From assembly GCA_024278055.1 (NCBI GenBank), contig JAJRTY010000025.1, positions 1 to 64,000 on the forward strand: a DNA stretch of 64,000 nucleotides, in the 5' to 3' direction. The notes below the pieces were generated by a model. It was not told the origin of the DNA. It worked only from the letters and a program-made list of their open reading frames with translations, and did not search any database. Both the position numbers and the translations under genes were made by a program. Of this stretch, positions 2,405 to 26,091 are shown in pieces. Position 1 is the stretch's first letter, and each line of letters opens with the position of its first letter. Source of the DNA: Alphaproteobacteria bacterium. GTDB taxonomy: Bacteria > Pseudomonadota > Alphaproteobacteria > Rhizobiales > JAJFHR01.

Positions 2405-3313
2405 ATGCGGTTCGAAGGAATATATACACCAATTATCACTCCGTTCCACACTGACGGCTCAATTGACTGGGACAGCTATGCTGGTGTTATTGACTGGCAA
2501 ATTGAAAACGGTGTAGCCGGGATTATCGTTGGCGGATCGACCGGTGAATTCTATGCCCTGTCCAAAGAAGAGCGCATTGAACAATTCAGGTTTGCAGCCA
2601 AACGCATTGACGACCGGGTTGAACTGATGGCCGGTGTCAATGACATCCGGGTGGATGAGTGCCTGGAGATCACGGTTGCGGCGCGCGAGGCCGGAGCGCA
2701 ATCACTTCTGGTCGCAGCGCCGCCTTATTCAATACCGTCCGAGGCCGAACTGGCGCATCATGTGCTCAAAATCGCCGACATATCCGGCCTGCCAATCATG
2801 CTTTACAATTATCCCGGTCGTGTTGTGGTCGAGATGGGCGAAGAATTCCTCAACATCGTCTCACACAACCCGCAAATTGCCGGCATCAAGGAATCCAGCG
2901 GTGATTATACCCGCCTGCCATATCTCTCACGCAACTATCCCGGCATTGAACTGGTTGTGGGCGGTGAGGAGCAGGTTCTGGAATTTGCCGCCTGGGGGGC
3001 AAAAGCCTGGGTCTGTGCCAGCGCCAATATTTTTCCCTCTGAATGTGTAAAGTTTATGGACATTGTCGGCCAACAGGGTGATTTCGAGCGCGGAAAACGT
3101 CTGATGAGCGCGTTTATTCCGCTCATGAATATTCTCGAACAGGGCGGAAAATTCCTGCCATGCGTAAAGCTGGGCTGTAAGCTGCAAGGCCGCCCAGGTG
3201 GCATTGTGCGCCCGCCGCTCCTGCCCCTGGAAGATGCCTTGCGGCAGGAAATTACCGAAATCATTGCGGCAACAGGCGACAAAGTGAACGCAATCCTCGA
3301 CGAAAAGGGCTGA
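2405..3313 (+). CDS. DapA/NanA-family lyase, likely hydroxyproline-pathway deaminase or related
   Basis: A class I aldolase-type TIM barrel of 302 residues. The signature GGSTGEFYALS (about 43-53), the Tyr motif LYNYPGR (Tyr134) and the Schiff-base lysine in GIKESSGD (Lys162) are all present, so the enzyme should be active. Family members include dihydrodipicolinate synthase, N-acetylneuraminate lyase and pyrroline-4-hydroxy-2-carboxylate deaminase. Because the next gene is a proline-racemase homologue, the hydroxyproline-type deaminase is my preferred role, but the substrate is inferred only. The start is the ATG at 2405 after CCGGGAGACA; the frame is open further upstream without homology. 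It is the first gene of a four-gene plus-strand operon. Confidence 0.85.
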   Translation: MRFEGIYTPIITPFHTDGSIDWDSYAGVIDWQIENGVAGIIVGGSTGEFYALSKEERIEQFRFAAKRIDDRVELMAGVNDIRVDECLEITVAAREAGAQSLLVAAPPYSIPSEAELAHHVLKIADISGLPIMLYNYPGRVVVEMGEEFLNIVSHNPQIAGIKESSGDYTRLPYLSRNYPGIELVVGGEEQVLEFAAWGAKAWVCASANIFPSECVKFMDIVGQQGDFERGKRLMSAFIPLMNILEQGGKFLPCVKLGCKLQGRPGGIVRPPLLPLEDALRQEITEIIAATGDKVNAILDEKG

Positions 3314-3317
3314 GCAC

Positions 3318-4430
3318 ATGGCTGGACCTTTGGACAAAGAGGGCGATATCACCACTCTTTTTGACGGTGACAGGCTGTCCGTTTACAAGGATGCCATGGG
3401 CTGGGAAAAAACGGTGACGATGATCGAGGCTCATGCCGAAGGTGAAGTTGGCCGCATTGTCACCGGCGGTGTTCTCGACATACCCGGCGACACCATGCTG
3501 GAGAAGATGAACCACATCAATCAGGTCGACGACAGTTTGCGCCGGTTCCTGATTAACGAACCGCGCGGTTGTGCCCAGATGAGTACCAACCTGCTGTTCA
3601 GGCCCACCCATCAAGACGCCGATGCCGCCTACCTGATTTTGCAGGCGGATAAAGCGCATGCAATGTCGGGATCAAACAGCATCTGTGTGGTGACGGTGCT
3701 GCTGGAAACCGGGATGGTTGAGATGATCGAGCCGGAAACCATTGTCACGTTAGAGACACCGGCGGGGCTGGTGCGGGCGCGGGCTGCTTGTGCCAACGGG
3801 AAATGTCAACGTGTGACGCTCGACATGACCCCGTCTTATGCCGACCGGCTGGACGCTGTGGTGATGGTCGAAGGGCTGGGCGCGGTCAGTGTTGATATCG
3901 CATTTGGCGGTGTTTTCTACGGCCTCATTGACCCGGCGCAATTTGATCTTGCCATCACCCCTGAGAATGCCCGCAAACTGGTAGACATCGGCTGTCGGGT
4001 ACATCGCGCCATCAATGAGCAGCTGGAAGTATGCCACCGGCAACTGGAAGCGCTCAACGGTATTTCATATACGATGTTTGTTGGTCATGATAATTCCGGC
4101 AACCTGAAAGGTGCCACCATCCTGCCGCCCGGGCGCATTGACCGCTCACCGTGCGGCACCGGCAACTGTGCCCGCCTCGCCGTCATGTTTCAGCGTGGCG
4201 AGGTGAAAGTGGGTGAAAAACGTGTGGCGCGCTCAATTATTGACAGTGAATTCGAGATATCCATTACCGGTACAACGAGTGTTGCCGGACAGGCCGCCAT
4301 CCTGCCCCGGGTTTCGGGACGCGGCTGGATTCATGGCATTCACCAGATCGGCCTTGATCCATCTGACCCCTTTCCCCACGGCTTCATGGTCGCCGATTGC
4401 TGGGGTGATGCTTTCGATCTGTTAAGTTGA
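3318..4430 (+). CDS. Proline racemase family protein, Ser/Cys type (4-hydroxyproline epimerase or 3-hydroxyproline dehydratase class)
   Basis: Second proline-racemase paralogue of the window, 370 residues. The first active-site motif is MSGSNSICV with Ser117 and the second is DRSPCGTGNCAR with Cys279. The Ser/Cys arrangement is known from bifunctional enzymes that epimerise 4-hydroxyproline and dehydrate trans-3-hydroxyproline. It begins 4 bases after the DapA-like stop, so the two are almost certainly co-translated. The first 30 or so residues have no counterpart in its divergent paralogue; a later Met27 (3396) could be the true start. Together with the lyase it points to breakdown of a hydroxylated proline or similar cyclic amino acid. 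Confidence 0.88.
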   Translation: MAGPLDKEGDITTLFDGDRLSVYKDAMGWEKTVTMIEAHAEGEVGRIVTGGVLDIPGDTMLEKMNHINQVDDSLRRFLINEPRGCAQMSTNLLFRPTHQDADAAYLILQADKAHAMSGSNSICVVTVLLETGMVEMIEPETIVTLETPAGLVRARAACANGKCQRVTLDMTPSYADRLDAVVMVEGLGAVSVDIAFGGVFYGLIDPAQFDLAITPENARKLVDIGCRVHRAINEQLEVCHRQLEALNGISYTMFVGHDNSGNLKGATILPPGRIDRSPCGTGNCARLAVMFQRGEVKVGEKRVARSIIDSEFEISITGTTSVAGQAAILPRVSGRGWIHGIHQIGLDPSDPFPHGFMVADCWGDAFDLLS

Positions 4431-12174: not shown

Positions 12175-13446
12175 GTGTTGATCCTGGCAATCTACGTCAC
12201 AATTTTCATTGTCGCCTATGTGCTCTATGGGCTGGTTGCCGGACGCATGGTTTCGCGTGAAGGCTTTACGGCCCGCAAAACCGTTACTTTCGGTGATGAA
12301 AGTGCGGTTACCCCCAACCGGGCCGCATCAGTGATATCAATCATTTCAATCTTTTTGATCTGGGGGGCTTTTACCGGATCTAATTTAGTACCTGTGCATG
12401 TGCCCGGCCCGTTTGTTGGTGATACATCATTCACCTATACGGCAACCAATCCGCAAAACCAGAGTGATGACGCAACAGTTTATATCCGTGTCAGGCCAGT
12501 GGGAGAGAAGACCGAAAAACCTAAAATTTCCGACAAGCCCCAAGCAGGGTTTGCCAAAGATGATGCCATGAAGGTGGGGGCGTGGCGCAGCGGTCTTATT
12601 CGCGTCCAGAACAATGATGAGGGCGGCAAAGAAAAAGGCTATCGCGTAACCGCTATCAATGGCCAGCCAATAGCGCCAAAGCAATCTGTTGAGGTGGCCG
12701 ATGGCGTCGTCAATATGACGGCCAAGGGCAGTCTGTCTTTTGTTCCCGACAAAGGCTGGCAAATGGAGCCGATCTGGCTGCCGTCCCCGGAAGCTGTGGT
12801 TTCGCGCTTCATTGAAGTTTCCCGCGACGGCTATCAGAATGTAACGCTTCTGGAAAACGTCGGCTGGTCATTGTTCCGGGTAATCGTCGGCTTCATTCTT
12901 GGCTCTCTGGTCGGCATCCCCCTTGGCTATGCCATGGGCCTGAATAACTGGTTTCGCGGCTGGTTTGATCCCATTGTCGAGTTCATGCGGCCAATCCCGC
13001 CGCTGGCTCTTATTCCTTTGATAATTATCTGGTTTGGCATCTGGGAGCAGGGCAAAATCAGCCTGCTGTTTCTGGCCGCCTTATGGATCATGACGATTTC
13101 TGCACGCGCCGGTGTGTCAGGCGTCAATATTGCCAAGGTCCATGCTGCCTATTCACTGGGGGCCTCAAAGTTTCAGATACTTACCCATGTTATCATTCCA
13201 AACTCATTGCCGTAAATCTTCACCGGAGCAAGGGTGGCGATGGGTGTGTGCTGGGGTACGGTTGTTGCGGCTGAACTGGTTGCAGCAGAAAAAGGTGCCG
13301 GTAAAATGATTATCGCAGCATCCAAGTTTCAACAGACCGATATTGTTATCATGGGAATAATTCTAATCGGCATTATTGGATACGGCATCGATATTTTGAT
13401 GCGTATGGCCGAAAAAACCCTGGTACCCTGGAAGGGTAAAAGCTAG
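12175..13446 (+). pseudogene. ABC importer permease (TauC-like) with cadherin-like insertion, interrupted by in-frame TAA
   Basis: The frame runs from GTG 12175 to a TAA at 13213-13215 (346 codons) and goes on in the same frame to 13446, giving 423 codons if read through. After two N-terminal membrane helices comes a stretch of about 120 residues (roughly 80-200) with DTSFTYTATNPQNQSDDATV and later GSLSFVPDKGW, which look like bacterial cadherin/Ig-type beta domains. The transport core follows, with the EAA-type loop AAYSLGASKFQILTHVIIP. The stop falls at NSLP-stop-IFTGARVAMG, where relatives have Glu or a similar residue, so a single change such as GAA to TAA would explain it. Without readthrough the last two helices are lost and the importer should fail. 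Confidence 0.8.
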
Positions 13447-13553
13447 AGCATTTATGCCAGTCTGATTTATGTGAAAATGTCCTGAATAATTTAGCGGGAA
13501 TTTCAAGCCGGAGAACAATCTGGACATGGTTCCAGGATGCGGCCAGGCGCTTT

Positions 13554-13601
13554 CAGATCAAATTTCCAAGTTTTTCAAACAGATGGTGACAATTTGATCT
13601 G
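13554..13601. repeat. 11-bp inverted repeat overlapping the FNR box
   Basis: CAGATCAAATT at 13554-13564 is repeated inverted as AATTTGATCTG at 13591-13601, 26 bases apart. The right arm contains the left half of the FNR box. It could be a second half-site or a chance product of the FNR consensus. Confidence 0.45.
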
Positions 13602-13607
13602 CATCAA
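13594..13607. promoter_or_regulatory. FNR/FixK box upstream of ccoN
   Basis: TTGATCTGCATCAA is a perfect match to TTGAT-N4-ATCAA. A plausible -10 element TATAGA is at 13631-13636, which would put the start of transcription near 13643 and the box centre near -42. That is the spacing for activation by FNR, FixK or Anr under low oxygen, as usual for cbb3 operons. Confidence 0.88.
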
Positions 13608-13721
13608 TGAGTCGCTGTTCGCAAGTGCAATATAGATACTTTATTTTTTTAACCTGTGGTATGATTCGACATCTGATTGTATCGCACGGTTGATCTATTT
13701 TATAACGAGGGGCCAGGAAAA

Positions 13722-15344
13722 ATGGGGCTTACCGCTTATTTCACCTCTTTCGGTGTGGTGGCACTTGCTGCACTGGTATTGGTAGCCAAGGCTGAAGATG
13801 CCTTATTTGCTTTCCACGCATGGCTGGTCGTTGCCGCTTGTGCGATAGCCGTTATTTACCGATTGCGGAAGCTGGATTTTGTTCCCGGCAAAACGGTAGT
13901 GCCCGAAAGATATTTTGACAGCGTGGTAAGAGCCGGTGTCATCGCTACAGTTTTCTGGGGACTTGCCGGATTTCTTGTGGGCGTGGTGATAGCTCTGCAA
14001 TTGTCGTTTCCAGAATTGAACTTCGACACCTCGTTTACCAACTTTGGCCGTCTGCGTCCCTTACATACCTCGGCTGTGGTTTTTGCCTTTGGCGGCAATG
14101 CCCTGATTTGCACAAGTTTTTATACGGTCCAGCGCACCTGCTCGGCCCGGCTGGCATTTGGCAATCTCGCCTGGTTCGTGTTCTGGGGCTATCAGATGTT
14201 TATTGTGCTGGCCGCCACTGGTTATTTATTCGGAGCCACGCAATCGCGTGAGTATGCCGAGCCAGAGTGGTATGTGGATATCTGGCTGACGATCGTCTGG
14301 GTTGCCTATCTGCTGGTTTTTCTGGGAACACTGTGGAAGCGTAAAGAGCCGCATATCTACGTTGGAAACTGGTTCTATCTGGCGTTCATTATCACCATCG
14401 CCATGTTGCATATTGTCAACAACCTGGCAGTGCCGGTCTCGTTCTTTGGTGTGAAAAGCTATTCCCTGTTCTCTGGCGTGCAGGATGCCCTGACCCAATG
14501 GTGGTATGGCCACAATGCAGTTGGGTTCTTATTGACTGCCGGATTTCTCGGTATGATGTATTATTTTGTTCCCAAGCAGGCACAACGTCCGGTCTATTCA
14601 TACCGGTTGTCGATCATTCATTTCTGGGCGCTGATTTTCCTGTATATCTGGGCCGGTCCTCATCACCTGTTGTATACAGCCCTGCCGGACTGGGCGCAGA
14701 CACTCGGCATGGCATTTTCCGTTATGTTGTGGATGCCAAGCTGGGCAGGCATGATCAATGGTCTGATGACACTCTCCGGGGCCTGGGACAAGCTGCGCAC
14801 AGATCCTATCATCCGCTTCATGGTGCTGGCGCTGGCGTTTTACGGCATGGCAACTTTTGAAGGCCCGTTATTGTCTATCAAGGCGGTTAATTCCCTCAGC
14901 CATTATACCGACTGGACCGTTGGCCATGTGCATGCGGGAGCGTTGGGCTGGAATGGCATGTTAACCTTTGCTGCCCTTTACTACATGGTGCCAAGACTAT
15001 GGGGCCGCTCGGGCCTGTACAGCCTGCGCCTGGTCAATTGGCACTTTTGGCTGGCAACCCTGGGAATTGTGCTCTACGCCTCCTCCATGTGGGTTTCCGG
15101 CATCCAGCAGGGGCTGATGTGGCGGACATTTAACGAGCTTGGTTTCCTCGAATATTCCTTCGCCGAAACCGTTGCCGCTATGCATCCTTACTATGTCATA
15201 CGCGCTCTGGGAGGAGTGTTCTATCTCCTTGGTTCTTTCATTATGGCGTATAATCTGTGGCGTACGGTGACCAGCCCGACCACATCCAAATCACACGATG
15301 CCGTGCCTGCCGGTGCTACGGCAACATTGAGCGGGGGGGCTTGA
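13722..15344 (+). CDS. ccoN: Cytochrome cbb3 oxidase subunit I
   Basis: The catalytic membrane subunit, which reduces O2 to water at a haem b3-CuB centre and pumps protons. It is 540 residues with about twelve membrane helices. Haem and copper ligands are visible as His in [30 protein letters not shown] and [20 protein letters not shown] start at the ATG at 13722 after GGGGCCAGGA; a TTG at 13677 is in frame without homology. First gene of ccoNOQPGHIS, downstream of the FNR box. A complete and apparently functional gene. Confidence 0.96.
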
Positions 15345-15347
15345 ACC

Positions 15348-16073
15348 ATGTTTAGCCACAAAATCATTGAAACACGCTCAATGCTGCTGCTGATACTATC
15401 GCTGGTGGTCATCTCGATCGGCGGTATTGTTGAACTTGTTCCTCTGTTCTTCCTGCAAAATACCATAGAAAAGGTCGAGGGCATGAGGCCCTATACGCCG
15501 CTGGAACTGGCCGGTCGCAATATCTATATTCGTGAAGGCTGTTATTCCTGTCACAGTCAGATGATCCGACCCTTCCGCGATGAGGTTGCCCGTTATGGTC
15601 CCTACAGCCTGGCGGCTGAAAGCATGTATGACCATCCCTTTCAGTGGGGGTCAAAGCGCACAGGACCGGATCTGGCTCGTGTTGGCGCGCGGTATTCCGA
15701 TGAATGGCAGGTCAAGCACCTGAAAGATCCGCGCTCCCTGGTGCCGGAATCAGTAATGCCCGGCTATCCTTTTTTGGCCAACAACACACTGCGCACCGAT
15801 AATGCGGCAGCGCACCTGAAAACCAATGTCATTGTTGGCGTACCCTATACTGATGAGATGATAAAGTTCGCTGAAGCCGACATGCGCGCCCAGGCTAATC
15901 CCGATTCTGATGATGTTGAGGGTCTGGAAAAACGTTATGCTAAAATATCCGTACGCGATTTTGACGGCAACCCCAACAAACTGACCGAAATGGATGCCCT
16001 GGTAGCTTATTTGCAGATGCTGGGGACACTGGTTGATTTCGAAAAATACGAACCTGAAAAGAACCTGAGGTAG
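15348..16073 (+). CDS. ccoO: Cytochrome cbb3 oxidase subunit II (monohaem cytochrome c)
   Basis: Membrane-anchored c-type cytochrome of 241 residues that passes electrons to CcoN. An N-terminal helix (about 11-35) anchors it, and the haem c site CYSCH is followed by [10 protein letters not shown]. The ligand Met is likely in SVMPGYPFL. It begins three bases after ccoN. The length and the ending in [11 protein letters not shown] are normal for CcoO. Confidence 0.96.
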
Positions 16074-16078
16074 AGCTG

Positions 16079-16237
16079 ATGGAATATGAAGTATTGCGCA
16101 AGTTTGCTGACACCTGGGGTCTGCTTTTTCTGGTGTCTGTTTTTCTCTTTGTAATCGCCTGGGTTTTTCGACCGGGCAGCAAAAAGCTCTATGAAGATCA
16201 GTCCAATATACTTTTTCGCAACGAAAAGAAGGACTGA
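16079..16237 (+). CDS. ccoQ: Cytochrome cbb3 oxidase small subunit CcoQ
   Basis: A 52-residue protein starting MEYEVLRKFADTWGLLFLVS, with one membrane helix (about 14-30) and then RPGSKKLYED. This matches CcoQ, which stabilises the CcoNO-CcoP complex. It starts five bases after ccoO and ends just before ccoP. Confidence 0.9.
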   Translation: MEYEVLRKFADTWGLLFLVSVFLFVIAWVFRPGSKKLYEDQSNILFRNEKKD

Positions 16238-16241
16238 ATTC

Positions 16242-17114
16242 ATGAGCAAGATTGAAGTTGATGAATTTTCCGGCACCAAGACAACCGGGCACAATTGGGG
16301 CGGTATCAAGGAGCTGGACACGCCAATGCCGCGGTGGTGGCTGATATGTTTCTGGATCGGCGTTATCTGGGCAATTGTCTATATGGCGATTTATCTTTTC
16401 TACCCAATGATCACAGGGTCAACCAAGGGGTATTTTGGTTATTCTTCTTCACGTGCGGAATTCGCCCAGACCATGGTGGAAGTCGGAAAATCTCAGGAAA
16501 AGTTTCTGGTAAAGATAAAAAATCTGTCTCTGGAAGATATTCGCAACGATAAGGAATTATCCGAATTCGCCTATGCCGGTGGCAAATCAGCCTTTGCCAT
16601 CAATTGCTCCCAGTGTCATGGCTCGGGGGCCGCAGGTGCGCCCGGTTATCCAAACCTCAATGATGACAACTGGCTGTGGGGTGGCAGTCTGGAAGAAATC
16701 TCCACCATAATTACTCATGGCATACGCTTTGATCAGGATGAGAACACACGGATTTCTGAAATGCCCGGGTTTGGCCGCGACGAAATTCTTGATCGCAAAC
16801 AGATTGACCAGGTGGCGGATTATGTTTTGTCCCTGTCCAATCGCGAACACAATGCCGAAAACGCCAAGTTGGGACTTGCCGTTTACGAGGAAAATTGCGC
16901 AGCCTGTCACGGGGCCAAAGGCGAAGGTGATCGTGAGCAAGGGGCGCCACAATTAAACAATGTTCTGTGGCTCTACGGCAATAAGAAGTCCGATATCATC
17001 AGGCAGGTCACCTCACCGCGACATGGTGTTATGCCTGCATGGGGCGGACGACTTGATGGAACAACCATCAAGCAATTGACAATCTATGTGCATGCTTTGG
17101 GTGGCGGCGAATAG
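16242..17114 (+). CDS. ccoP: Cytochrome cbb3 oxidase subunit III (dihaem cytochrome c)
   Basis: Dihaem cytochrome c of 290 residues that receives electrons from soluble cytochromes. The N-terminal part has HNWGGIKELDTPMPRWW and a membrane helix, as in all CcoP. The two haem c sites are CSQCH (in NCSQCHGSGAAGAPGYP) and CAACH (in NCAACHGAKGEGD), each with a later Met. I start at the ATG at 16242 (MSKIEVDEFSG); the frame is open to 16191 but overlaps ccoQ. The spacing to ccoQ is four bases. Confidence 0.95.
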   Translation: MSKIEVDEFSGTKTTGHNWGGIKELDTPMPRWWLICFWIGVIWAIVYMAIYLFYPMITGSTKGYFGYSSSRAEFAQTMVEVGKSQEKFLVKIKNLSLEDIRNDKELSEFAYAGGKSAFAINCSQCHGSGAAGAPGYPNLNDDNWLWGGSLEEISTIITHGIRFDQDENTRISEMPGFGRDEILDRKQIDQVADYVLSLSNREHNAENAKLGLAVYEENCAACHGAKGEGDREQGAPQLNNVLWLYGNKKSDIIRQVTSPRHGVMPAWGGRLDGTTIKQLTIYVHALGGGE

Positions 17115-17197
17115 ATCCGGCGCTCCAGTACTGATGATAACAGCGCGTCCGTGAAAGAGTGATTTTGCCGACACCGCGCAATCCTGGGTAAAGCTGA

Positions 17198-18691
17198 ATG
17201 GTTGAGGTATTGAATACAATCGACAAGCAGATTGATCGCGTCGAAGTGGAGGCAGTAAACTCCAAGGGCAATCGTGCGCTTTTTGCCAAACGCAAGAAAA
17301 TATTTCCCAAGCGCGCCAGCGGCACCTTTCGACAGTTCAAATGGGCGGTGATGGTTTTCACCCTGGCAATATATTACTTCACGCCATGGATACGCTGGGA
17401 TCGGGGTGAATTTACACCTAATCAGGCGGTGCTGGTTGATCTTGATCAGGGCCGTTTCTATTTCTTTTTCATCACCATCTGGCCACAGGAGCTGTATTAC
17501 ATCGCCGGGCTGTTGATCATGGCCGGTGTCGGCCTGTTCCTTGTCACCTCAACCGTGGGCCGTGCCTGGTGTGGCTATACCTGCCCGCAAACGGTGTGGG
17601 TGGACCTGTTTTTGGTTATTTAACGCTGGATTGAAGGCGATCGAAATGCACGGATCAAGCTGGACAATGCCGGCTGGTCTGCCCCTAAAGTCTTCAAGCG
17701 GCTCTCCAAGCATGTTTTGTGGCTGGTGATTGCTATGATGACCGGCGGGGCCTGGGTATTCTATTTTGCCGATGCCCCTACTTTGCTGAAAAATCTGCTG
17801 ACGGGCAATGCCTCTTCCATTGCTTATTCAACCATTTTTGTTATGACTTCGATCACTTATCTGTTTGCCGGTTTCATGCGCGAACAGGTGTGTACTTTCA
17901 TGTGCCCGTGGCCGCGCATTCAAGGCGCGATGCTGGATGAACGCTCACTGGTTGTCACCTACAATGACTGGCGCGGAGAGCCACGTTCGCGTCATCAGAA
18001 AAAATCTGAAGTGAATGCGCAAAGCGGTGATTGTATTGACTGTAATCAATGCGTGGTTGTCTGCCCCATGGGTATAGATATTCGCGATGGTCAGCAGTTG
18101 GAATGCATTACGTGCGCGCTATGTATTGACGCCTGCAACGGGGTTATGGACAAGATCGGTCGCCCGCAAAATCTAATCTCATATTCAACTCTCAATGATT
18201 ATGAAGCAAATGTGAAAGGTGAGCGCACAAAAACCACCTGGCGTTCGTTTATTCACGGGCGCACAGTGATTTACTCTGCCATAATGGCAATCGCAGCGCT
18301 GTCTTTGCTCTATGTACTGGTCATGCGAAATCAGGTTGAGGTGAATGTTCTGCATAATCGCAATCCGATTTTTATACTGTTGTCCGATGGGTCCATACGC
18401 AATGGATACACGGTCAAAATACTGAACAAGAAGCTCCAGCCACAGGAATTTGTCATAAGTGTTGAAGGAATTCCGGGATTGGAAATGCAGGTTGCCGGAG
18501 CGGAGACGGATGCCCAAAAACAGGTGGTTCTCGAAGTGCCGGCAAACGACCTTGAATCTGTCCGCCTTTTCTTGCGCGCCACTCCATCGAACCTGAAGGG
18601 TGAACAAACCCCGTTCAATTTCATTGTCCGCAACAAAAACGATACAGAAAAGATTACCCATGAGGCAGTTTTTTACCAACCCAAAAATTAG
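17198..18691 (+). pseudogene. ccoG: cbb3 oxidase accessory ferredoxin-type protein CcoG, interrupted by in-frame TAA
   Basis: CcoG is a membrane iron-sulfur protein that reduces copper for cbb3 assembly. The frame opens at ATG 17198 and has AWCGYTCPQTVWVDLFLVI, then a TAA at 17621-17623 (codon 142), then RWIEGDRNARIKLDNAGW in the same frame through to 18691. Relatives have Glu at the stop position, so GAA to TAA is the simplest change. Downstream, CTFMCPWPRIQ and two 4Fe-4S motifs (CIDCNQCVVVCP and CITCALCIDACN) are intact, as are the later membrane helix and the C-terminal Ig-like domain. The rest of the sequence shows no other damage. Confidence 0.88.
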
Positions 18692-18706
18692 ATAGATGGA
18701 TAAGCT

Positions 18707-19201
18707 ATGAGCAATCAGGCAGATGACATAGAAAAAACAGGCCAGTTTACCGGCTGGCATATGGCAATAATCATGGTCGCTTTTTTTGGCGTTGTTGTCT
18801 CTGTCAATGGTTACATGGCCTGGATGGCGGTAGATTCATGGACCGGTTTGATGGCGCGTAACGGTTATGTGGCCAGTCAGGATTTTAACGCCGGCCTGGC
18901 TGAGCGCAAAAAACAGGACAGTCTCGGGTTTCAAAGCATTCTGCGCTACCGTGACAAAACTATGGTTTTTACCTTCCAGGACCGATCCGGCCAGCCTCTG
19001 AAGGGTTTTGAAATCACTCTTAAAGTTGGCAGACCCACTAACGAGAGAGAAGATCGGCAGTTTTTGATGAAAGAGGTTGCGCCGGGAACTTATCAGCAAA
19101 AACTACAACTGGCGCCAGGGCAATGGAATGCGGACGTTATCGCAATTAACGAAACCGGTGGCCGCTGGAAGCGTCTGGTACGTCTCGACGTCAAAAAATA
19201 A
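18707..19201 (+). CDS. ccoH: cbb3 oxidase assembly protein FixH/CcoH
   Basis: A 164-residue membrane protein with one N-terminal helix (about 17-38, GWHMAIIMVAFFGVVVSVNG) followed by a periplasmic domain with GFEITLKVGRP and PGQWNADVIA. This is the FixH pattern; FixH/CcoH is needed to assemble the oxidase and works with the copper pump CcoI. It starts 15 bases after ccoG and precedes ccoI. Confidence 0.9.
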   Translation: MSNQADDIEKTGQFTGWHMAIIMVAFFGVVVSVNGYMAWMAVDSWTGLMARNGYVASQDFNAGLAERKKQDSLGFQSILRYRDKTMVFTFQDRSGQPLKGFEITLKVGRPTNEREDRQFLMKEVAPGTYQQKLQLAPGQWNADVIAINETGGRWKRLVRLDVKK

Positions 19202-19224
19202 GCCCTTGCAAGAAGTTGTCGATC

Positions 19225-21396
19225 ATGAACATGCGTGAGGAAAATTTGCATCATATCCAGCTCTCTGTGCCCGATATGCATTGCGGCGGGTGCATGAGCA
19301 AGGTGGAAAAGACTTTAAATCTTCTCAAAGACGTGTCTTCAGCGCGCGCTAATCTATCTACCCGCCGGGTAACAATTACCTGGAAAAATGACACCTTGAC
19401 CCCGGAAAACCTGATCGAACACCTGGCCGGAAAAGGTTACAGCGCCCAAGCCATTGACGATATGGATGGTTTTGAAGATGAGCAGGAAAAAGCAGGTCAG
19501 GATTTGCTGCGTGCCCTGGCGGTTGCAGGCTTTGCTGCCGCAAATGTTATGTTGTTGTCGGTGTCGGTCTGGGCCGGTGCAAATGATGTCACGCGCGATC
19601 TGTTTCACTGGATCTCAGCACTCATTGCCCTGCCGACGATTGTTTACAGCGGCCGCGTTTTCTTTCGATCAGCCTGGACAGCTTTGAGCCACCGGCGCAT
19701 GAACATGGATGTTCCTATTTCCCTGGCCGTCATTCTGGCGGGTACCATGAGCCTGTTTGAAACCATGGCGGGCCGCGAGCAGGTATATTTTGATGCCGCC
19801 GTGACCTTGTTGTTTTTCCTGCTTGTCGGTCGATATCTCGATCACATGATGCGCACAAGGGCACAAAACTCCGCCACGCAATTGTTGAAGCTGGCCCCAA
19901 AAACCGCACTGACGGAAGATTTGGACGGAAAGCGCACCACAGTACCGGTTTCCTCTCTCGCAGTGGGGATGAAAGTTGTGGTGTTGCCAGGTGCAATCGT
20001 GCCGGTGGATGGCCGGATAGTTTCGGGAACAAGTGAGTTGGACCGCTCTTTGATTACCGGCGAAAGCCTGCCTGAACTGGTAAAGCAACATGATTTTGTT
20101 CAATCAGGTGTTATGAACCTGACGGCCCCCCTGGTTATTGAGGTAACCGCTGTTGGAAAGGACAGCTTTCTGGCCAGTGTTATCGCTTTGATGGAGGCTG
20201 CTGAACAACACAAGTCGCACTACGTACGCATTGCCGACAGGCTGGCTGCAATCTATGCGCCGTTTGTTCACATCGTTGCCTTGCTGACGTTTTTTGGCTG
20301 GCTATGGGTCACTCAGGGAGATTGGCAACAAGCCCTCCTGGTGGCGATTTCGGTTTTGATTATTACGTGTCCGTGCGCTCTGGCTCTGGCGGTCCCGGTG
20401 GTTCAGGTAGTGGCCAATGGCGTTTTATTTTCCAGAGGCGTTCTGGTCAAGGATGGGGCGGCTTTGGAAAAACTTGCCCAAATAGACAGTATTGTGCTGG
20501 ATAAAACCGGTACGGTGACCACCGGCAAGCTGATGTTGCAGGATATTGACGAGGTTGAGGCCGACCTGTTTGGCGTTGCTGCCGGACTTGCCTGCAACAG
20601 CACTCACCCTTTGTCGCGGGCGGTGACAAGGGCCGCTGTTGCGCGCAATATTGCGGTGATACCCTGCGACACTATACAGGAATATCCAGGGCAAGGCCTT
20701 GAAGGCCAGTGCCGGGGGCGCACGGTTCGCATGGGCAGCCGGGTGTGGTGTGGCGTTAAAGATGACATGACAGAAGATCCGAGCCTGATTGCCAGCCAAC
20801 TGTGGGTTAAAATCGGAAATAATCAACCCGTTGCCCTGACCTTTGTCGATCAATTGCGCGACGATGCCAGAAAAGTGGTTGAAAACTGGAAACTTCACGG
20901 TTTGGGCACCACCTTGCTGTCGGGTGACCGGCCTTCATCGGTGGCAGCGGTGGCACAAGCGTTAAGTCTTGATAATTTTGTTGCAGAAGCTTCTCCGGCA
21001 GACAAGGTTGACATTATCAAGAACATGGAAACATCCGGGTTGCAGGTATTGATGATTGGCGACGGCATCAATGATGCGCCAGCTCTTGCTGCCGCCCATG
21101 CATCCATGGCACCGGCAAGCGCATCGGACATCGGGCGTTCGGCGGCGGACGTAATTTTTCTTGGCGACCACCTGGCACCGGCTGCCTTTGCCTGGCGCAC
21201 TGCCCGGCGGGCACGGCGTTTGATACAACAGAATTTTGCATTGGCACTCTCCTATAATCTTGTTGCCATACCGCTTGCCATGGCAGGTCTGGCCTCGCCA
21301 CTGGTGGCCGCGGTGGCGATGTCTACATCCTCCGTAATCGTCACCCTGAATGCCTTGCGCCTGCGCTATCAGGCCGGTGGAGATATGAAGTTGTGA
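19225..21396 (+). CDS. ccoI: Copper-exporting P1B-type ATPase CcoI/FixI for cbb3 assembly
   Basis: Heavy-metal P-type ATPase of 723 residues that supplies copper to CcoN. The HMA domain has MHCGGC (near 16), the membrane metal site is ITCPCALALAVP, the phosphorylation site is DKTGTVTTGK, the HP motif is in NSTHPLSRAV and the hinge is GDGINDAPALAAA. All are present. I use the ATG at 19225 (MNMREENLHH); a TTG at 19216 is in frame. Its last four bases overlap ccoS. Confidence 0.94.
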   Translation: MNMREENLHHIQLSVPDMHCGGCMSKVEKTLNLLKDVSSARANLSTRRVTITWKNDTLTPENLIEHLAGKGYSAQAIDDMDGFEDEQEKAGQDLLRALAVAGFAAANVMLLSVSVWAGANDVTRDLFHWISALIALPTIVYSGRVFFRSAWTALSHRRMNMDVPISLAVILAGTMSLFETMAGREQVYFDAAVTLLFFLLVGRYLDHMMRTRAQNSATQLLKLAPKTALTEDLDGKRTTVPVSSLAVGMKVVVLPGAIVPVDGRIVSGTSELDRSLITGESLPELVKQHDFVQSGVMNLTAPLVIEVTAVGKDSFLASVIALMEAAEQHKSHYVRIADRLAAIYAPFVHIVALLTFFGWLWVTQGDWQQALLVAISVLIITCPCALALAVPVVQVVANGVLFSRGVLVKDGAALEKLAQIDSIVLDKTGTVTTGKLMLQDIDEVEADLFGVAAGLACNSTHPLSRAVTRAAVARNIAVIPCDTIQEYPGQGLEGQCRGRTVRMGSRVWCGVKDDMTEDPSLIASQLWVKIGNNQPVALTFVDQLRDDARKVVENWKLHGLGTTLLSGDRPSSVAAVAQALSLDNFVAEASPADKVDIIKNMETSGLQVLMIGDGINDAPALAAAHASMAPASASDIGRSAADVIFLGDHLAPAAFAWRTARRARRLIQQNFALALSYNLVAIPLAMAGLASPLVAAVAMSTSSVIVTLNALRLRYQAGGDMKL

Positions 21397-21554
21397 ATAT
21401 TCTTCTTCTGCTTATTCCCGCAGCCCTTGTGTTGGGCGGTCTTGGCCTTGCCAGTTTTATCTGGGCTTTGAAAAGCGGTCAGTTTGATGATCCTGATGGC
21501 GCAGCTGCACGTATTTTGTTTGATGATGAAGAAGAAGAAGATAATGAGCCTTGA
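21393..21554 (+). CDS. ccoS: cbb3 oxidase maturation protein CcoS
   Basis: A 53-residue protein starting with GTG, MNILLLLIPAALVLGGLGLA, then SFIWALKSGQFDDPDGAA and an acidic tail. FWALKSGQFDD is the hallmark of CcoS, needed for haem and copper insertion into CcoN. It overlaps the end of ccoI as GTGA. Confidence 0.93.
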   Translation: MNILLLLIPAALVLGGLGLASFIWALKSGQFDDPDGAAARILFDDEEEEDNEP

Positions 21555-21749
21555 TGAAATAAGGCGAAACTACGCGATGAAGATATGGTGCGGACACCGG
21601 AACAGGTGTGCAGCCGACCAGGCCATGGCAAATCAAGCCACGTCGACCACAGGTTGGAACAACGAAGATGCCCAGGCACCAAACCTGTCATAAGAATAAC
21701 TTATCGTATCCATCAGAAAATCCAACTTAAACTAATGGAAGTTTTCTGC

Positions 21750-21762
21750 TAGAAGGGTTCTA
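21750..21762. promoter_or_regulatory. Palindrome resembling an Irr (iron control) box
   Basis: TAGAAGGGTTCTA is a perfect dyad with a three-base centre. It resembles the TAGAA-N3-TTCTA core of the Irr box that controls haem and iron genes in Rhizobiales. KatG is a haem enzyme, so iron control is plausible but unproven. Confidence 0.35.
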
Positions 21763-21827
21763 TGAAGATGGTAAATGGCCAGGGCCCCAGCTGTCTCGCT
21801 TCACGACCACTACTGATGCCTTCGCCA

Positions 21828-21841
21828 TTGATCTGGATCAA
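21828..21841. promoter_or_regulatory. FNR/FixK-type box upstream of katG
   Basis: TTGATCTGGATCAA is a perfect TTGAT-N4-ATCAA match 76 bases before the katG ATG. The only good -10 (TATAAT, 21855-21860) would place the -35 region at about 21832-21837, inside the box, and the box centre near -32. This geometry suggests repression of katG by an FNR-type protein when oxygen is low. Confidence 0.65.
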
Positions 21842-21854
21842 CCTCCGGAGAACC

Positions 21855-21860
21855 TATAAT
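21855..21860 (+). promoter_or_regulatory. -10 element of the katG promoter
   Basis: A consensus TATAAT 57 bases before the katG start codon, with no clear -35 because the FNR-type box lies there. Confidence 0.55.
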
Positions 21861-21883
21861 CTTTACCCTTGAAACGATTTTAA

Positions 21884-24109
<2,226 letters not shown>

Positions 24110-24124
24110 ATCTAGCAAAAAACT

Positions 24125-24157
24125 TTGAACCGCTCCGGTTTTGCCGGAGCGGTTCAA
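24125..24157 (+). terminator. Terminator hairpin after katG
   Basis: TTGAACCGCTCCGG at 24125-24138 pairs perfectly with 24144-24157 around a TTTTG loop, 15 bases after the katG stop. A run of A precedes it and no long T run follows on the plus strand, so it may work in either direction. Confidence 0.75.
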
Positions 24158-24256
24158 TCTCGCACAGATCTCCGGCAAGCATTGCACCCGCCTAAAACAT
24201 TGATGTTCCGCGGGAAAATCAACGGCCTGAAAATATATACCAATGAAAGTTGGATA

Positions 24257-24346
24257 TGGCGGAGAGAGAGGGATTCGAACCCTCGGTATGCTTGCGCACA
24301 CAACGGTTTTCGAGACCGCCCCATTCAACCACTCTGGCACCTCTCC
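24257..24346 (-). tRNA. tRNA-Ser(CGA), reads UCG
   Basis: The minus strand folds as a class II tRNA: acceptor GGAGAGG pairs with TCTCTCC, the anticodon loop is CTCGAAA (anticodon CGA), a long variable arm contains TGTGTGCGCAAGCATA, and the T loop is TTCGAAT. The CCA end is encoded. It is 90 bases with CCA. Confidence 0.95.
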
Positions 24347-24403
24347 TGCACTTTACGTTCAATGACACAGTTTCAACGCTGCGTGAAGATGCTGGTTCAG
24401 TTT

Positions 24404-24901
24404 TTACCGTGACAAATGCGCGAATTGTTTGATTACCGCGGTATAAACATCACGCTTGAATGGCACAATAAGATCGATCAGCTGATCCATATCACTCCAC
24501 TTCCATTGATCAAACTCCTGTTCGAGCCCGTCATCGGCAGCAATATTGATTTCACTTTCAGGTCCGGTCAGCGCCATAGCGAACCATTTTTGTTTCTGGC
24601 CGCGATATTTGCCCTTGAGGGCAAATCCGACCACCTACTGGGGCAGGTCGTAATAGAGCCATTCATCTATCGTGGCAACGATCCTGGCGGAACTGACACT
24701 GGTTTCTTCTTTTAGTTCGCGCCAGGCCGCCTGTTCGGGTGTTTCGCCGTGGTCAATGCCACCCTGGGGCATCTGCCAGATATGGGTGTTGGCATCATCT
24801 TTCCATTTGGGGATGCGGTGGCCGACCCAGACCTGGCCGCGGGAATTCAAAAGCATAATGCCCACACATTCGCGATATGGCAGTTTTTCAGTTTCAATCA
24901 T
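24404..24901 (-). pseudogene. rppH: RNA pyrophosphohydrolase RppH, interrupted by in-frame TAG
   Basis: A Nudix hydrolase that removes pyrophosphate from mRNA 5' ends to start decay. The Nudix box GGIDHGETPEQAAWRELKEE is complete. Translation from ATG 24901 meets a TAG at 24637-24635 (codon 89), in WLYYDLPQ-stop-VVGFALKGK. The normal C-terminal half (YRGQKQKWFAMALTG, EFDQWKW, DLIVPFKRDVY) goes on in the same frame to 24404. Full length would be 165 residues, normal for Rhizobiales RppH. The stop likely replaces Glu (GAG to TAG). A product ending there keeps the Nudix helix but loses the last strands and helices. Confidence 0.87.
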
Positions 24902-24931
24902 GGGATACTCGATAAAGGGACAGGTAAATTT

Positions 24932-26091
24932 CTACGTCTGGCCAGCCGGAATTGTTGCCGATACAGGAACAAGAGTAATACCCTTGGCCTCCAGTGACTT
25001 TGACCACTCAACGATGCGCTCTATCGAAATCGGCAAGCCGGAGGCATATCCAATGGCAAGGCCGCGCCGCCGGGCTATGTTTTCCAGCTGCATCAAGGCT
25101 TTGTCTATAGCAGCTTTGGACGGGTTAACATCAATCAGGAGATCGGCAGTTGAAACGCCGAGGCCAATTTCGCGACCTACCTGTTTTGCCTTGCTGCGCT
25201 GGGAGGTACCATTATCAACAAAGATCAATCCGCGTCGGGAAATTTCGGCAAGGGTATTTCTCAAAGGTTCAGGTGTGGCGGTAAATTTGGCACCCATATA
25301 GTTGGTAACACCGGCGTAGCCGACGAACCTGGACATCAGCCATTTTAAGCGGCGCATGTTTTCCGCGTCAGGCAGATTGGTCAAAAGCGTATAGGGGCCA
25401 GGGTCATTATCAGGAAAATCATAGGGTTCCATCGGAATTTGCAAAAGCACTTCATGACCGTAATCACGGGCTTTTTTTATCCACGATTGCAGACCTTTGC
25501 CATAGGGCGCAAAGCCTAAAGTAACCTGCTCAGGCAGGCGTTTGATTGCAGCATTGGTACCCTTGGCGCTCAGCCCCATGCCACCGACAAAGATGGCAAT
25601 TCTAACCCGCGCTGCAGCTCCGGACGTATTGGCATCAGGTTTACGGGCATAGACCTGACTCGGGCGGCGGCCATCTTCGCCTATGCGAGGTAAGGGTCCT
25701 GTACTGGATTTTTCCACCAGGCCTTTAGCTGGCACAGGCGGCAACGCTGCAACTGTAGCTTCCAGGGTTTCAATGGTTATGTCCGCCACAGGTTCGGCGT
25801 CAGAGGAAGGGGGGGAGGTTCGGTATTTTTGGCAACTTTTGCAAGATCTTCCGGGCGTACGGTCTTGCGCATACCAAGTTTTTGAGTGTCAACTTTTGGC
25901 GTCTGGTCTTTCAGTTTGTCCAATTTTACGATGGCAACGGGCTCACCACCGAGAGGGTCATTTGATACCAGCACCCAACTCAGCAGACCAAACAAGGTAA
26001 TTGCAAACAGCGCCCAACTGGCAACAAGAATTTTTGATCGTTTTGGTGCAGTCGGCGCTTTAATCGTTTCGTTGGAGTCTTGCGATGTCAT
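24932..26091 (-). pseudogene. Divergent polysaccharide deacetylase family protein, frameshifted in a 7-base homopolymer
   Basis: The N-terminal part (from ATG 26091) has a membrane anchor SKILVASWALFAITLFGLLS, then a Pro-rich linker; it runs off frame at VAKNTEPPPLPLTP. The second part reads TSPPSSDAEPVADITIETL and holds the full domain with FVGGMGLSAKGTNAAI, LLQIPMEPYDFP and NYMGAKFTA. Adding one base to the G7 run at 25809-25815 (C7 on the coding strand) joins the two into one protein of about 386 residues. The family is periplasmic and membrane-anchored, and usually sits next to ctpA and envC as here; its exact role in envelope carbohydrate turnover is not known. Confidence 0.82.

Follow-up and report, generated by a model that had tools for sequence, protein, structure and literature searches.

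A perfect FNR-type box before katG in an alphaproteobacterial genome, a candidate operator of a low-oxygen promoter

The nearest measured case of a catalase gene with an FNR-family box over its promoter is katA of Pseudomonas aeruginosa. As the accessible part of PMC4974557 describes it, the distal promoter katAp1 answers OxyR, and the proximal promoter katAp2 has an Anr box that lies over the -35 region with its centre at -29; transcription from katAp2 in an anr mutant is given there both as significantly reduced and as abolished. For Rhodobacter sphaeroides, the accessible part of PMC2908626 reports that FnrL activates cbb3 and apparently represses low-affinity oxidase operons. The word 'catalase' occurs 0 times in the main texts of the regulon papers PMC2908626 and PMC4999443, and Caulobacter katG is described, in the available part of its source, as OxyR-dependent. 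Control of katG by FNR, FnrL, or FixK is reported in none of the titles and visible abstract openings listed from the open-licence literature, a range that leaves its absence unproven.

Here we analyzed katG in a 64-kb stretch of an alphaproteobacterial genome, called the window below. This genome (G000) was compared with a congener (G001) and a third genome of the genus (G002), which are the only ones marked as the same genus in the 88 rows listed out of 101. The reading that we favour, with a probability of about 0.5, is that the palindromic FNR-type box before katG (Table 1) would be the activating operator of a proximal low-oxygen promoter, P2, which would have been added to an older OxyR-type promoter, P1. 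A FnrL/FNR-type regulator, active at low oxygen, would bind the box and recruit RNA polymerase, and P2 would supplement the distal P1 in the oxyR-katG intergenic block, which would answer peroxide.

Table 1. Features of the window discussed in the text. Gaps are counted in bp from the end of the box; starts are predicted.
Feature	Coordinates	Strand	Remarks
FNR-type box before katG, TTGATCTGGATCAA	21828-21841		Palindromic; 0 mismatches to TTGAT-N4-ATCAA; identical in G001
Second perfect FNR-type box	13594-13607		Before ccoN; TATAGA at gap 23
TATAAT, possible -10	21855-21860	+	Gap 13 from box; start near 21867; identical in G001
TACCCT, possible class II -10	21864-21869	+	Gap 22 from box; start near 21876; identical in G001
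Conserved oxyR-katG intergenic block	21688-21740		ATAAG-N5-CTTAT at 21690-21704; 46/53 identical to G001
Stretch of ~30 bases that may remain from the first codons of the divergent oxyR-type gene	21657-21686	-	19/30 identical to G001 when anchored
katG frame	21917-24109	+	Broken by TAG at 22367-22369 (codon 151); intact in G001
ccoG frame	17198-18691	+	Broken by TAA at 17621-17623 (codon 142); open in G001

The window contains two sites that match TTGAT-N4-ATCAA with 0 mismatches, one before ccoN and one before katG, and base composition predicts 0.05 perfect sites per window and 0.0002 per 300-bp leader. Matches with up to 2 mismatches number 52 in the window vs 37.4 expected, so only the perfect sites carry weight. 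Across the G000 genome, perfect boxes number 17, where 2.7 are expected (Poisson P 4.5e-9), and the reversed control pattern has 0 matches; there are 22 perfect boxes in G001 and 21 in G002, with 1 and 0 matches to the reversed control, respectively. The ccoN gene of G001 is also preceded by a perfect box (the names of the cco genes, including ccoN, were read from translations without a family-model scan). Boxes of G000 stand upstream of hemN and ubiM, both of which score above NCBIfam cut-offs, and before genes for a universal stress protein and a ClC channel that score above Pfam cut-offs, the ClC start being 232 bp off. Others precede a gene of 190 aa that matches no family and an Hsp20-like gene that stays below cut-offs, among other places. 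Outside the window there are 15 boxes, and the coordinates place 7 of them in stretches that align to a box-holding stretch of G001 (L001, L005, L007, L009, L010, L011, and L013). Taken as sequence, the FNR-type site before katG is genuine, and several boxes of the genome precede typical FNR targets.

A candidate cognate regulator is encoded in G000 at L186, positions 2817-3572. The protein has a C-x2-C-x7-C motif close to the N-terminus, another Cys farther on, and ETVSR in its recognition helix, and it scores above the cut-offs of three Pfam models (Crp, HTH_Crp_2, and cNMP). Among NCBIfam models, FnrL fits it best, with 258 bits under a cut-off of 300 bits, so that the exact name of the regulator is not secured. 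A second Crp-family domain of G000 is present at a contig end (G000:C181). The FnrL-like protein is one candidate binder of the katG box.

When comparing the window with G001, we observed that the box is identical at 14/14 positions and TATAAT at 6/6 with the same spacing, while the 13 bases between them agree at 9/13. Identity in the flanks is 25/26 at 21861-21886, 61/77 at 21741-21817, and 22/30 at 21887-21916. In G002, no site with up to 2 mismatches was found within 350 bp of katG. We also scanned 146 katG leaders, made up of 68 loci from 66 of the 68 matching genomes (the 2 left out had weak matches) and 78 of the best 80 named loci (the other 2 were too short); start codons were chosen by rule, making distances approximate. 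A perfect box within 300 bp is present in only 3 of the 146 leaders (0.08 in shuffles), those of G000, G001, and G063, and the G063 box is inside the OxyR-type region (leader L207). This agrees with a preliminary description of the locus, which had called a perfect FNR/FixK site unusual before a catalase-peroxidase gene. Relaxing the match to at most 1 mismatch gave 12 leaders (1.6 in shuffles) and to at most 2 mismatches 44 leaders (18.4 in shuffles). Four one-mismatch boxes (TTGATCTGCATCGA, 234-294 bp before katG) were set aside, as their place and sequence suggest that they lie inside the divergent LysR-type gene. Among the genomes seen, the katG box of the window is confined to two, for which a gain in their ancestor would be the simplest reading.

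It is very improbable that the box is an older leader motif that happens to read as an FNR site or that serves another factor. Such an origin would fit the leaders of G002, G038, and G079, which at the aligned place have CTGGAT within a related stretch, and no box, as well as the location within OxyR-type regions of both the G063 box and a one-mismatch FNR-like palindrome in the G016 leader (L200), but it has to contend with the small number of perfect boxes expected per leader, the retention of all 14 bases in two species, and a genome that is enriched in such boxes. Two side observations came from the same scan. Upstream of katG of G003 (leader L202), the one-mismatch box TTGATCAGGAACAA is found at -123; TATAAA follows it at gap 20, and the box is perhaps an independent FNR-type katG site. 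Stretches in the leaders of G059 (L028, TTTAGAATAATTCTAAA) and G012 (L030, a similar stretch) resemble what we take to be an Irr-type box, which belongs to another regulator.

The preliminary description had located the box over the -35 region of katG and had taken this position to suggest repression in the absence of oxygen. The location holds, with a box centre near -32.5 relative to the start that the perfect, conserved TATAAT predicts. Repression does not follow from it, because a box over the -35 region alone does not tell activation from repression: the box of katAp2 overlies the -35 region and yet Anr activates. For TATAAT, no -35 hexamer with at least 4/6 matches was found at spacers of 14-20 bp (TTGATC, with 4/6 matches, is at spacer 21), and a scan of 21380-22000 found no sigma-70-like -35/-10 pair (0.6 in shuffles). 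We surveyed the register of 59 of the 60 boxes of G000, G001, and G002, of which 26 were by rule gene-facing and outside coding sequence, a rule under which some likely targets, hemN of G000 among them, are lost. Once the two boxes at katG and four boxes duplicated through orthology had been removed, 20 promoters were left. TA follows the box at exactly 22 bp in 8 of these 20 (P 4.5e-5), whereas other gaps reach 4 at most and average 1.08 when gaps 22 and 23 are left out. A gap of 22 is the class II register, in which the box is centred at -41.5. The hexamer in this register at katG is TACCCT, and the start that it predicts is the position at which, according to the preliminary description, the box would be an activator site. 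TACCCT is weak on the gap-22 matrix (6.8% of 500 background hexamers reach its score) and is outscored by TATAAT at gap 13 and TAATCT at gap 15; the matrix alone does not choose TACCCT over TATAAT.

P2 could use either of two registers, one being class II with TACCCT as the -10 element and the other the -35-overlapping geometry of P. aeruginosa katAp2 with TATAAT as the -10 element. The opposite sign, which we consider somewhat unlikely, would have FNR over the -35 region block the TATAAT promoter without oxygen or block P1 transcripts that pass the box. The centre near -32.5 is compatible with such a block, and a repressed promoter would likewise be expected to have a perfect TATAAT beneath an overlapping box, but TATAAT is without a clear -35 element, a gap-22 hexamer is present, and the nearest measured case with such geometry is activated. 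The weakness of TACCCT counts against activation as well, as does the broken state of the gene in this assembly, and to our knowledge the FNR family does not usually activate from a centre at -32.5. A precedent for a regulator of the FNR family that activates cbb3 and apparently represses other operons is R. sphaeroides FnrL, as far as the accessible part of PMC2908626 goes. We favour activation because of the gap-22 register, the missing -35 element, and the precedent of P. aeruginosa katA.

The intergenic block upstream of the box recurs in leaders from other families (L022, L026, L027, L035, and L043), where katG and a LysR-type gene are divergently oriented. In G001, the block begins at the start codon of the divergent gene, which has both LysR Pfam domains and which we labelled oxyR from its place. 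The block is a putative older, distal, peroxide-responsive promoter, P1. An oxyR-type gene is divergent from katG in both G001 and G002, and this arrangement is the usual one in relatives, consistent with the earlier statement that OxyR is the common control of such genes. No orthologue of the neighbouring oxyR-type gene was found in G000, where the best match is 47% identical and has an in-frame TAA. This LysR-type gene, the nearest to G001 oxyR, is located at about 3506-4414 of L183 (G000:C117). A short stretch next to the block may be a remnant of the first codons of the divergent gene, based on an anchored alignment; the unanchored local alignment was not significant (score 20, reached by 80 of 300 shuffles).

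Pairing the katG box with the cbb3 operon next door, as in the preliminary description, would give one regulator opposite effects. This pairing is not seen in the congener: the cco genes match G001:C36, where other genes follow cco, and G001 katG has the same box and is on the 5.1-kb G001:C66, adjoining the oxyR-type gene. We rejected cco plus katG as a conserved unit on these grounds. The window from 24929 on matches G001:C16, and in G002 a ccoI-like match runs off a small contig. A tRNA-Ser (cga) at 24257-24346, the only tRNA found in the window, lies after katG near the synteny breakpoint with G001. Farther along, a stretch of ~100 bp at 36202-36308 matches many scattered places in G001 and is a dispersed repeat.

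The assembled katG frame has an in-frame stop. Its C-terminal piece scores above the cut-off of the NCBIfam model for catalase/peroxidase HPI. The distal and proximal haem motifs begin at residues 95 and 261; the TAG falls between them, so neither fragment has both, and the assembly has no single open katG frame with the two. Full-length KatG is probably not the output in G000, given the stop at codon 151. The suggestion that KatG would be made only when oxygen returns is weakened accordingly, as the full-length protein may not be made. The stop may itself be an assembly error, the G000 assembly having 217 contigs and a contamination of 6.47. The gene is single copy and the only catalase found in G000; neither PF00199 nor PF05067 catalases turned up in G000, G001, or G002 (assemblies 97, 94, and 83% complete, respectively). 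Over 729 codons, katG of the window and katG of G001 differ by 131 synonymous and 40 nonsynonymous changes. The divergence of the neighbouring genes spans this level, and the stop, if real, would therefore be a recent one.

Other genes near katG are also interrupted. At places matched by ORFs of G001 in the window and its flanks, in-frame stops occur in 9/64 cases, with 5/10 between 12.1 and 26.1 kb and 4/54 elsewhere (P 0.003). The contrast becomes 5/10 vs 1/51 (P 0.0002) after dropping one presumed antisense ORF and two stops that fall no more than 20 codons from the start. The broken genes within 12175-26091 are ccoG, katG, and the genes at 12175, 24410, and 24935, the last of which is also frame-shifted. 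Recoding of one stop codon was rejected, since the five genes carry a mixture of TAA (twice), TAG (twice), and TGA (once) that no single reassigned codon explains. The cluster of stops is either local decay or locally poor assembly. We think it unlikely that the box has no output that matters in G000, having been inherited from a working promoter, as in G001, at a locus that is decaying. The TAG between the two haem motifs, the lack of an orthologous oxyR-type neighbour, and the stops in half of the compared genes around katG would speak for such a decay, but the divergence of katG makes any loss recent, the stops may be assembly errors, and the gene encodes the only catalase found.

If the box activates, as we favour, katG of this genus would be the second catalase to have come, independently, under peroxide-type as well as low-oxygen control, and the role of catalase in oxygen-poor cells would become testable in another class of bacteria. 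A broader proposal, which we regard as distinctly doubtful, is that the FNR family has a second activating position near -29 to -33 that replaces the -35 element and is used convergently at the unrelated catalases P. aeruginosa katA and this katG, so that an enzyme that removes peroxide is on hand when oxygen is low. As TATAAT and TACCCT are neighbours, the start directed by a single box could then also change with oxygen.

Overall, the locus combines features of several described systems. Like the divergent oxyR-katG promoter of Rhizobiales (PMC11975290), a group to which this bacterium presumably belongs, the window retains the conserved block, and G001 and G002 show the same gene order; the accessible part of that source describes control by OxyR and LsrB and does not mention an FNR-type box, and the window is without an oxyR-type gene. 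The alphaproteobacterial FnrL/FnrN/FixK regulons have the same type of box and include ccoN and hemN among their targets, according to the available parts of PMC2908626 and PMC4999443. The closest likeness is to P. aeruginosa katA as presented in the accessible part of PMC4974557, a catalase gene with a distal promoter of the OxyR type and a proximal FNR-family box over the -35 region; sequence elements that may correspond to the two are present before katG of the window and are kept in G001. The distance from start to start codon is 51 nt at katAp2 and is predicted to be about 50 (or 41) here. Unlike katG, KatA belongs to another enzyme family and another class of bacteria, its box is TTGac-N4-gtCAA with a centre at -29, and its starts and Anr dependence were measured, whereas those proposed for katG of the window are predictions. 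The box before katG would most likely be the activating kind of element already measured for another catalase.
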